From Sedimenticola sp. (GTDB taxonomy: Bacteria > Pseudomonadota > Gammaproteobacteria > Chromatiales > Chromatiaceae), in the NCBI GenBank assembly GCA_027083925.1, contig JALWMK010000031.1:1-64000 (forward strand): a DNA stretch of 64,000 bases, in the 5' to 3' direction. Shown here piece after piece: positions 36,915 through 57,145 of this stretch (position 1 is its first letter; every line of letters begins with the position of its first letter). The notes under the pieces were generated by a model, which saw only the letters and a program-made list of their open reading frames with translations, was not told where the DNA came from and did not search any database. A program made the translations under genes and the position numbers.

Positions 36915-37090
36915 TTTGCATGGTTATCGCCCCTGGATTCCGGCCTGCGCCGGAATGACAAGAGAAGTGCCACCCATCACACCCCGAAAAAGCGCCGTCA
37001 TCCCGGCGCACGACTCCAATGGATGGAGGAGGCCGAATGAAGCAGGAGGCCAGAATCGAGGCCGGGATCCAGGGAATATCACTCCACCTC
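36915..37090. repeat. Cluster of GC-rich palindromic repeats
   Basis: A full copy ATTCCGGCCTGCGCCGGAAT occupies 36937-36956 within the unit 36934-36960. Half copies in the other orientation follow at 36994-37018 (CGTCATCCCGGCGCACGACT) and around 37055-37080 (GGCCGGGATCCAGG). The cluster fills the space between two convergent polysaccharide genes, where hairpins on both strands could act as a bidirectional transcription stop. Confidence 0.7.
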
Positions 37091-53047: not shown

Positions 53048-53064
53048 GGGCACCTCTATTAATT
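53048..53064. repeat. Solo MITE terminal sequence
   Basis: GGGCACCTCTATTAATT, identical to the end of the MITEs at 56870 and nearly so at 54879, stands here without the rest of the element. It overlaps the 3' end of the minus-strand gene 53059-54483: the TAA stop and the asparagine codon before it come from this sequence. Confidence 0.75.
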
Positions 53065-54483
53065 GGATTCTATTTTTTCCTCCCGGAGAACGTATAAATA
53101 GAGAATTGAGAATACGCTCATAGGAACCATATGAAACATCGCCCTATTAATTGTCGTTGAATCTACTGCCTCTATGTATCTATGGGTAAAGAAAAAAACG
53201 ATGAATATAAATGCACCTCCTGATACTATCACAGATAGTGGCAACAGCATATCAGAACTCCACCCCCTACTCAGATATAACAATATAAATAGAAAAACGA
53301 TTCCATAAAAATACAAATTCCAACTCAGGTATTGAAACGCATTCTTTATAATATATGGCCAAACCGCATGGTACTCTAGGGAAAATTTCATAAAACCGGG
53401 TATTTCAACTACATCCATATTGAGCCTTAGCATTCCAAATGATGGAATATCCACTGCCACCCCTCCCAATAGAAGTACCGCACCAACTAGTCCTAAAGCC
53501 GCTACAATTGAACGGATCCTATAACGAGCAGGAATAAGAATAAGCACTAATACTAAAAGCATCGTACCAACCCAAATAATTCCGGGAGATTTTGTTTGGA
53601 TACAAGCAATAGATGAAACAACGAATAAAACGAATTGCATTGTAGACCTAGTACTTGCCCAATTGAGTAAAGCCATACCTGCCAAACAGTAATATGCAGC
53701 CATCCATAAATCAGCGTACCCTGCAAGAGCCGTATGAACATTCATAAATGGCATACTAAGCAGAAGGTAAACAAACAATAGAGACACATGTGGCTTCACC
53801 TGTAGCATCCTGGCCTGCCCGTAAAATGCAAAACCAATCGCAGCACTGGCGAAAAACCATGGGGCGTTTATATAGTTGTCCCGCCAAAAACCTAAACCCA
53901 AGGCAGACCAAAGCTGAATTATCGGCACCGTTGGCGGGTAGTCCCATGCCACCCAATTACCTAACGTATAAACAGTATTGAGTGAAGACTCCACACGCCA
54001 AGCCACAGGATCCACAAATGGGACTAATTCATTCAGTTCAAACCAGACTCTGGCTTTCGGCGCCCAATTCATCCAACCATCCCAGGGAAACAGGGGGCGC
54101 CAAATTACTTCTAAAAAAAGAGTACCGAAACGCACAAGCAGGACTGCGAGCAGAAACAGTACTACCAAACGCTGCCACCCTTCGCTGCTCCCACCAGTCT
54201 TACAGCAGTCCGCTAAATGGAAGTTGGCGCTTTGATCTTTTCGGAGGACAATAGCCCAAGCCAATGCAAGCGCAATAATAAGAAGCAAGACAAAAATGAC
54301 GCTATAAAATGACAGCTCAAAGCCAAGCCATGCCAATAATCGAATTATTACTGTTACTAAAAACAGACCAATAAAGTACCCATAGCCCACTATTGCGGAC
54401 CAGTGCGCCCCTTTCCAGATATGGTGCAGCCAGGCGGCGCCAACCAAAAGGGGTAAAAATATGGAAATGCCCAATCCAATCAT
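53059..54483 (-). CDS. Multi-pass membrane protein, possible GT-C type glycosyltransferase
   Basis: 474 residues with about 11-12 hydrophobic segments. A loop after the fourth helix contains RPLFPWDGWMNWAPKARVWF, with acidic and tryptophan residues recalling the first external loop of GT-C enzymes (ArnT/PMT-like), but I see no decisive motif. Its stop codon falls within a solo MITE end, so the natural C-terminus may have been replaced. Transcribed against the polysaccharide cluster and in the same direction as the membrane protein at 55130. Confidence 0.55.
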   Translation of the reverse strand: MIGLGISIFLPLLVGAAWLHHIWKGAHWSAIVGYGYFIGLFLVTVIIRLLAWLGFELSFYSVIFVLLLIIALALAWAIVLRKDQSANFHLADCCKTGGSSEGWQRLVVLFLLAVLLVRFGTLFLEVIWRPLFPWDGWMNWAPKARVWFELNELVPFVDPVAWRVESSLNTVYTLGNWVAWDYPPTVPIIQLWSALGLGFWRDNYINAPWFFASAAIGFAFYGQARMLQVKPHVSLLFVYLLLSMPFMNVHTALAGYADLWMAAYYCLAGMALLNWASTRSTMQFVLFVVSSIACIQTKSPGIIWVGTMLLVLVLILIPARYRIRSIVAALGLVGAVLLLGGVAVDIPSFGMLRLNMDVVEIPGFMKFSLEYHAVWPYIIKNAFQYLSWNLYFYGIVFLFILLYLSRGWSSDMLLPLSVIVSGGAFIFIVFFFTHRYIEAVDSTTINRAMFHMVPMSVFSILYLYVLREEKIESN

Positions 54484-54878
54484 AAACTTCGATCTTACAA
54501 AAAAGCCTTTCTTCCTGCCTGCCTGCCCCGTAGTCCTGCTTTCTCACTCTCGATTATCTTCAGAAGGCCCATATGTTATGGCTATCGGCCTGCACTTTCC
54601 AGAACAATCGTTCATCGCCTTGAGAACAGAAAATTTCTCAGCCCGCTAACAAGCCCCGCCGCCAACGATACCTTATTTCAGACTTGAAATGGTCTAATCG
54701 TCGTGTCCCGCGTGATCCTATTCCAAAAGAACATTATATGATCTATCGGGATTTGACATAACGAAACATGGGCGCAAAGCTTTCGCTAGCGGCTCGTCGA
54801 TTTTGTGTGCATTATCATACCAGAAGCCAATTTATTTATCTTATATTTCAGTAGCTTGTAATTGTTTAGCAGACTCTG
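54484..54878. other. AT-rich gap upstream of the membrane-protein gene
   Basis: 395 bp without a supportable gene. It should contain the promoter of the leftward gene 53059-54483; no convincing promoter pair was found. It ends at the MITE copy at 54879. Confidence 0.35.
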
Positions 54879-55128
54879 GGGCACCTCTACTAATTCTGTT
54901 TAAGCAGATTCGTGCATGAGGACAGCGAGAACAAGGCGAAGATCGCAGCAAATACCACAGGGCACCTTATCTTACGCAAGCGCAATTCACCTTGTAGCAG
55001 GCAATTTGCAACATGTTCAAAGCTTCCGCTCCCAGCTTACGCCCCTCACCTGCATCCCTGTAGGCGACGAAGTTATCGCTGCCCTCATGTGCGTAGATGC
55101 CAATCATCATGAATGAATAGAGGTGCCC
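54879..55128. mobile_element. MITE, 250 bp
   Basis: Bounded by GGGCACCTCTACTAATT on the left and AATGAATAGAGGTGCCC on the right, imperfect inverted repeats. The interior is about 90% identical by eye to the reverse complement of the element at 56870. Flanks TCTG and TCTA could be a mutated 4-bp duplication. Small open frames inside it are not gene-like. No transposase is encoded, so it would move with the help of an IS elsewhere. Confidence 0.85.
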
Positions 55129-55129
55129 T

Positions 55130-56503
55130 CTAATGAATACCATCTATAATGAAGGTGTCGCCAAACCTATCATGATCCAGATGACGCACCGAGAACTCTC
55201 CTTTTGCTCCCCATTTTAAAATTCCGGAATCTTGGTCAAAATGGGGAAGAGCGGTCGGTTGAAGCATTATTACGTAGTCACCCGGCTTGAAATATTTCGA
55301 CAACCAAGACGATGAAGTATACTTTCCATAGTTGTAAACATTGTGAGGCAACAAGTAATACATTAATTTTACGCGCCAATAACTTCTGTGTGCCTCACTG
55401 AATATAAAGATACGCGCCGGTTCTTTTGGTAGCACCTTTTCACGAAGCTTTTTTGCATAAACGTAGATATCCACGTCTGATGCCGCCAAATGCTGTTCAT
55501 GGTGGCTCTTTCCCGCAAACAAATACTTGGTATCTTCCAACTGCCGCCACAAATCCACCTGCCATTTTCCATCCAGCACCAACCAGGCGATCATGAACAT
55601 GATGACAATGGCTTTGAAGTCCCAGATTTGGCGGGTTATTGCGAAGGCAATGGTTAGTGGATTCCGGCCTGCGCCGGAATGACGGGTATCAGCGGAATGC
55701 TGAGCCGCTGATGCCTGTCGGACAGAGCGGCTTGCTTCTTCGACTTCCAGTTCAAACTTCACTTCAGACGCACGATAGAAAAACAGCCACAGGGTATAGA
55801 GCAGGATGGCCAGTCCGCACCAGGCAGCAGCTGCGACGACGGGTGACACCAACGCATTCTTGGGCATGCCTCTTATGGCATTGATGGATTTCTGGGTCCA
55901 GCCTTCGAAGGCATTCCATTCTGTCCATACGGTCAGCAGCAAGGATTTGACGGTCCACGGGCTAAAGGTGATCTGTTCGATGGTGACAGGTTGATTGCGC
56001 AGATCGCCAGACACACTGATACCCATCTCGGTAACGGGGCCTTTCCACTCCTCCTCGTTACTCATGTTGTAGGCAGACAGGTAATCACCGTTCCAGTGCA
56101 GTTTGGCAAACAGGGTTTCTTTGTTATGGGTCACGGTGCGCCAGTACAGGACCACCGTAGCGCCTGGCGTTCGTCCTGTTATCTTGTACTCGACAATGGG
56201 GTATTTCGTGGCATTGAACAGTGCTTTCCTGGACGAGATAACGGCAGATTTCGCTTCATCCAGCGCTTTCAGCTTCAGTGCACTGCCTTCATGACCTCCT
56301 TTGCCGATGGCAATATAGAAGTCTTTTCCTGTCAGGACGATGGGCTTTGTCTTGGCGCCTGCCACCAATTGAGGGTAATGCCAGGCCAGAAACCCTGCAA
56401 CCAGGATGAACCCGCTGATGAGCATGAACACAATGGCCGCAAGCAGCGCACGCAGAAAGCCCCGGTTGCTGTTACTTGGTCTGAATTTTTCGATCGCGGA
56501 CAT
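55130..56503 (-). CDS. Membrane protein of unknown function with repeat-derived insertion
   Basis: Start MSAIEKFRPS at 56503 (457 residues); the longer frame upstream is unconvincing. Transmembrane helices lie at about 17-40, 221-243 and 297-311; residues 41-220 are probably periplasmic and rather beta-like, and 312-457 form a second external domain. Residues 274-282 (RHSGAGRNP) are encoded by a GC-rich palindromic repeat (55659-55686) inserted in frame in the cytoplasmic linker. The TAG stop lies in the flank of the MITE at 54879. I do not recognise a family; an envelope-glycan role is only a guess from neighbours. Confidence 0.6.
   Translation of the reverse strand: MSAIEKFRPSNSNRGFLRALLAAIVFMLISGFILVAGFLAWHYPQLVAGAKTKPIVLTGKDFYIAIGKGGHEGSALKLKALDEAKSAVISSRKALFNATKYPIVEYKITGRTPGATVVLYWRTVTHNKETLFAKLHWNGDYLSAYNMSNEEEWKGPVTEMGISVSGDLRNQPVTIEQITFSPWTVKSLLLTVWTEWNAFEGWTQKSINAIRGMPKNALVSPVVAAAAWCGLAILLYTLWLFFYRASEVKFELEVEEASRSVRQASAAQHSADTRHSGAGRNPLTIAFAITRQIWDFKAIVIMFMIAWLVLDGKWQVDLWRQLEDTKYLFAGKSHHEQHLAASDVDIYVYAKKLREKVLPKEPARIFIFSEAHRSYWRVKLMYYLLPHNVYNYGKYTSSSWLSKYFKPGDYVIMLQPTALPHFDQDSGILKWGAKGEFSVRHLDHDRFGDTFIIDGIH
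55659..55686. repeat. GC-rich palindromic repeat inside a coding region
   Basis: The unit ATTCCGGCCTGCGCCGGAAT with GACGGG after it is the same as at 36937, but here it lies within the gene 55130-56503 and is translated as RHSGAGRNP without disturbing the frame. Confidence 0.8.
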
Positions 56504-56869
56504 GCTGCTGGAAAAAAGGCACTTCCCTGTTTGGGTTGAGGCTATTATAGCCGATCGGGAATCATGGCCGGGCGATGTTTCCCCCATTGCTGTATCTATT
56601 GCGATAAAAGCAGAGGGAGGGGTCAGCCGGAGGGGATCAGAATATTCCTACAAGCTGATCGGAAGAATACGCTACCCTGAACATGGGCTGGTGCGTAGCA
56701 TATACCCATCGCCACAGACCGTTGCTCATTATGAGCTGGCAAGCAAGGAAGTTTGCAGGATATGGATTTCTCTGGTCTGCTCGCGAGTGAAAAGCCCTGG
56801 CCAGAAGGAAGCTGGCCGGGGCTATTCTTTGCGCTGTGCCTTGCATGCAACATTGATGTGCCAGATTAA
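56504..56869. other. Gap between membrane-protein gene and MITE
   Basis: 366 bp; no gene supported. It should carry the promoter of the leftward gene 55130-56503. The right end is the TTAA target site of the next MITE. Confidence 0.35.
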
Positions 56870-57116
56870 GGGCACCTCTATTAATTCATGATTGGCATCT
56901 ACGCACATGAGGGCAGCGATAACTTCGTCGCCTACAGGGATGTAGGTGAGGGGCGTAAGCTGGGAGCGGAAGCTTTGAAAATCTTGCAAATAGCCTGCTA
57001 CAAGGTGAATTGCGCTTGCGCAAGAGAAGGTGCCCTGGGGCATTTGCTGCGATCTTCGCCTTGTTCTCACTGCCCTCATGCACGAATCTGCTCAAACAGA
57101 ATGAATAGAGGCGCCC
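56870..57116. mobile_element. MITE, 247 bp, with TTAA target duplication
   Basis: Starts GGGCACCTCTATTAATTCAT and ends GAATGAATAGAGGCGCCC; the ends are imperfect inverted repeats. TTAA stands directly on both sides (56866-56869 and 57117-57120), a clean 4-bp duplication. The TTAA target and GGGCACC-type ends are compatible with IS5-family transposases, but the source element is not in the window. Opposite orientation to the copy at 54879. Confidence 0.9.
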
Positions 57117-57145
57117 TTAAGTCGAAACTAATACATCCGCTGCCA

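Follow-up and report, generated by a model that had tools for sequence, protein, structure and literature searches.

We have analyzed a 64,000-nucleotide stretch of a Sedimenticola sp. genome (the window; contig JALWMK010000031.1) in which a palindromic repeat lies within a gene for a predicted inner-membrane protein. The features of this locus are collected in Table 1. The protein has hydrophobic segments at about residues 12-44, 215-245 and 292-312, and in its reading frame the repeat encodes RHSGAGRNP, which falls between predicted helices 2 and 3. The first-pass annotation had described this arrangement, and the frame is indeed open through the repeat. The linker between helices 2 and 3 is probably cytoplasmic; AlphaFold predicts no secondary structure at residues 245-295, at low confidence (two-row alignment, mean pLDDT 37). 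No Pfam or NCBIfam family was found for the protein; within its taxonomic family, 46 of 210 genomes encode a relative. A MITE-like repeat of ~250 bp flanks the gene on both sides, at 54872-55128 and 56866-57120, as inverted copies with 93% identity, one of which abuts the stop codon; at least 40 copies or fragments of this element are found in the genome.

Table 1. Features of the repeat-bearing locus and of the intergenic repeat copy (positions in the window).
Feature	Position	Strand	Remarks
Predicted inner-membrane protein gene	55130..56503	-	457 aa, three hydrophobic segments; open frame, homologues
Expanded linker, helices 2-3	55613..55771 (about residues 245-297)	-	alignment
CGTC-1-type REP CGTCATTCCGGCGCAGGCCGGAATCCA	55658..55684	-	27 bp; RHSGAGRNP, residues 274-282; exact match to other copies; folds
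Intergenic copy of the same REP	36934..36960	+	tag TGTC
Small hairpin beside the REP, within the linker, ATCAGCGG...CCGCTGAT	55688..55712	-	8-bp arms; coding sequence

Two exact occurrences of the 25-bp core of the repeat, GGATTCCGGCCTGCGCCGGAATGAC, are present in the window (36935-36959 and 55659-55683). The earlier statement that the palindrome inside the gene is the same as one between genes near 36937 thus holds to the base over 25 bp; the length of 20 bp given for it was too short, since the unit common to the in-gene copy and the other copies compared is 26-29 bp. The exact core was matched in none of 100 shuffled sequences, which rules out a chance palindrome. The full palindrome reads CGTC-ATTCCGGC-GCAG-GCCGGAAT-CCA, the in-gene copy folds into an 8-bp stem with a 4-nt loop, and the repeat is free of stop codons in five of its six reading frames. 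When up to three mismatches are allowed, the window's own genome (2.58 Mb in 176 contigs) contains 47 near copies, versus none for the reversed pattern used as a control. The genome of a sister Sedimenticola sp. contains 54, for a total of 101. Many copies form pairs of opposite orientation about 52 bp apart with a shared spacer; the in-gene copy is single. Just downstream of the intergenic copy, a stretch at 36996-37071 has REP-like ends (GTCATCCCGGCGC...GGCCGGGATCC) and a 91% match to a site in the sister genome about 1 kb upstream of the membrane-protein orthologue.

These properties correspond to those of the CGTC-1 REP family, as set out by Di Nocera, De Gregorio and Rocco (2013, PMC3733652); the assignment is by description rather than by a base-by-base comparison with the consensus. 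The tag is CGTC in the in-gene copy and the tolerated variant TGTC in the intergenic one, the 8-bp stem starts with AT, the loop has 4 nt and the tail is CCA. As in that family, the copies are numerous, dispersed and mostly intergenic (47 and 54 in the two genomes), and the ~52-bp pairs resemble its inverted dimers with a conserved spacer. Occasional intragenic copies and the lack of a linked transposase are common to both. The difference lies in the host, a Sedimenticola-like bacterium whose genus was not met in the available part of that paper. A search of Rfam was of no help.

Comparison with homologues indicates that the linker is expanded. The segment between the ends of helices 2 and 3 has 60 residues in the window protein versus 12-26 in 27 remote homologues, and RHSGAGRNP is absent from all 27, a check that the first-pass annotation had proposed; this alignment rejects the possibility that the peptide is a conserved protein motif unrelated to the repeat. 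The annotation had also named, as evidence against its proposal, homologues that carry the residues without the repeat DNA. None was found. The sole other homologue with RHSGAGRNP is the closest one, a syntenic orthologue in a Sedimenticola sp. MAG (L031, the same gene as L033 in G176), and it has the exact DNA repeat, encoding the same peptide on the same strand and in the same frame. Its linker is longer still (95 residues), and the next homologues have only ~40% identity. Beside the first repeat, the sister linker holds a second, decayed one, which reads GAATTCCGGCCTTTGCTGGAGTGGA on the non-coding strand; in the gene frame it forms part of LHSSKGRNSD. The derivation of the whole linker from the repeat was rejected, as only 26-29 bp match other copies. 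The small hairpin beside the REP was found nowhere else in the genome, and the sister allele lacks it at this position. Searching the literature for the peptides gave nothing helpful.

Substitution rates were compared between the window and sister alleles on either side of the linker. Before it, dN is 0.12 and dS 1.54, with dN/dS about 0.08; after it, dN is 0.15 and dS 1.40, with dN/dS 0.105. By this measure purifying selection acts on both halves of the gene. The homologues encode both halves in a single frame, many of them of about 400-440 codons, and for these two reasons we regard the locus as neither a pseudogene nor two genes. Local conservation of the linker is low, which would fit a frame open by chance in a gene that is decayed, or really two genes, at the repeat; a dN/dS of about 0.1 on both sides and the single frame of the homologues make that reading scarcely credible, and contradict the split that had been named as grounds for refutation.

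We infer, with a probability of about 0.82, that a dispersed CGTC-1-type REP inserted in frame into this gene, so that a linker tolerant of length changes gained a peptide and the protein stayed functional. The element would have entered the linker, probably on the cytoplasmic side and most likely in a common ancestor of the window and sister-species alleles, leaving the frame intact and adding a presumably neutral RHSGAGRNP. Continued function of the protein is proposed because the linker tolerates changes in length. The sequence comparisons thus support the earlier suggestion that a repeat element has become protein sequence: remote homologues lack it and the orthologue carries the exact DNA in the same frame. 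The repeat alone does not account for the linker: of about 35-45 extra residues it supplies 9, roughly one fourth of the expansion, and other events are needed.

REPs within genes have already been reported in several species, including in-frame elements of Rickettsia, and such inserts may be neutral through their position in flexible linkers or loops (PMC3733652). The present case is a well-supported fresh instance of that phenomenon, and not a new phenomenon. The Rickettsia elements RPE-4 and RPE-6, which are counted as CGTC elements in the same source, are alike in that a palindromic repeat lies in frame within an apparently functional gene; here too the repeat appears inside a reading frame and is missing from related ones. 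By the counts in that paper, intragenic CGTC repeats are most numerous in R. conorii, whereas here one gene is affected among 101 copies in two genomes. The locus would be a clear instance in which a non-coding repeat has turned into protein sequence, shared with a syntenic orthologue and missing from many homologues. A Sedimenticola-like bacterium would join the hosts of translated REPs, and the locus supports the view, published in the same source, that such insertions survive in flexible linkers.

The age of the insertion is bound up with the divergence of the two alleles. Over the regions compared, identity between the two genomes is mostly about 94%, and it is 93-96% in DNA further out from the gene; for the gene and its neighbour at 53059-54483 it drops to about 75%. 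The alleles must therefore have diverged well before the species, or one of them has been exchanged. The neighbour is an adjacent membrane-protein gene, and the pair lies beside a glycan-synthesis cluster (NeuB, polysaccharide flippase and WecG-type genes); the low identity of the gene pair at 53059-56503 suggests allele exchange beside this cluster. The bases flanking the repeat are more alike in the window and sister alleles than in any of 95 pairs of non-orthologous copies, and shuffling the flanks gave equally good matches in only 0.5% of trials for each side. The insertion is thus probably common to both alleles. It is unlikely that the same dominant REP variant entered both alleles independently, in a linker prone to repeated insertion. 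The decayed second copy in the sister linker implies at least two insertions there, and the repeat is 26/26 bp identical in a gene with ~75% identity overall and 56% at third positions; against this stand the identical strand and frame, and flanks that are alike on both sides beyond all 95 control pairings.

The unchanged repeat at a dS of about 1.5 is not predicted by a simple ancestral neutral insertion. Its identity could reflect selection, conversion, re-insertion or luck, and it allows, without showing, selection at the DNA level or conversion. We consider it doubtful that selection on a hairpin in DNA or RNA, or gene conversion with other copies as donors, has kept the inserted repeat intact. 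The absence of changes in 26 bp between strongly diverged alleles, the predicted stability of the RNA hairpin and the presence of identical donor copies in both genomes would fit, but the gene contains one more 26-nt run of identity, which cautions against making much of the unchanged repeat, and at other sites, in regions with about 94% identity, orthologous repeat copies show differences at 0-6 of 25 positions, which argues against general homogenisation. It is more improbable again that selection on the DNA or RNA form keeps the in-gene REP unchanged, for example through slower translation between helices 2 and 3, with one sequence serving as hairpin and peptide. The homologues included no near-identical allele with an empty site, from which the precise point of insertion or a duplicated target could be read.

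In-gene insertion is rare in these genomes. Open frames of at least 130 codons are touched by 36 of the 101 copies in the two genomes, and only the window gene and its orthologue were found, among the frames tested, to be supported genes with a copy inside. Three other candidates were rejected: a Pfam-supported Mur ligase, where the 3-mismatch hit is weak and probably due to chance, and a Pfam-supported LptE frame and a weak cytochrome c7-like frame, in both of which the repeat is near the frame start and probably upstream of the true start codon. The remaining long frames tested across the copies had no Pfam support. Short palindromes, often in inverted pairs, are also typical of REPIN/RAYT systems, in which a Y1 transposase gene is flanked by the repeats. 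A transposase-linked REPIN was rejected, since the Y1 genes of the genus are not flanked by the canonical repeat (no REP lies near 25 of the 26 Y1_Tnp loci) and abundance, which ranges from 0 to 204 copies across the genus, does not track transposase presence: Y1_Tnp hits are lacking in two genomes that carry 35 and 44 copies, and three genomes with Y1 genes have no copies. The one other Y1_Tnp locus (L216) has divergent REP-like copies nearby, and its genome is the one that holds 204 copies.
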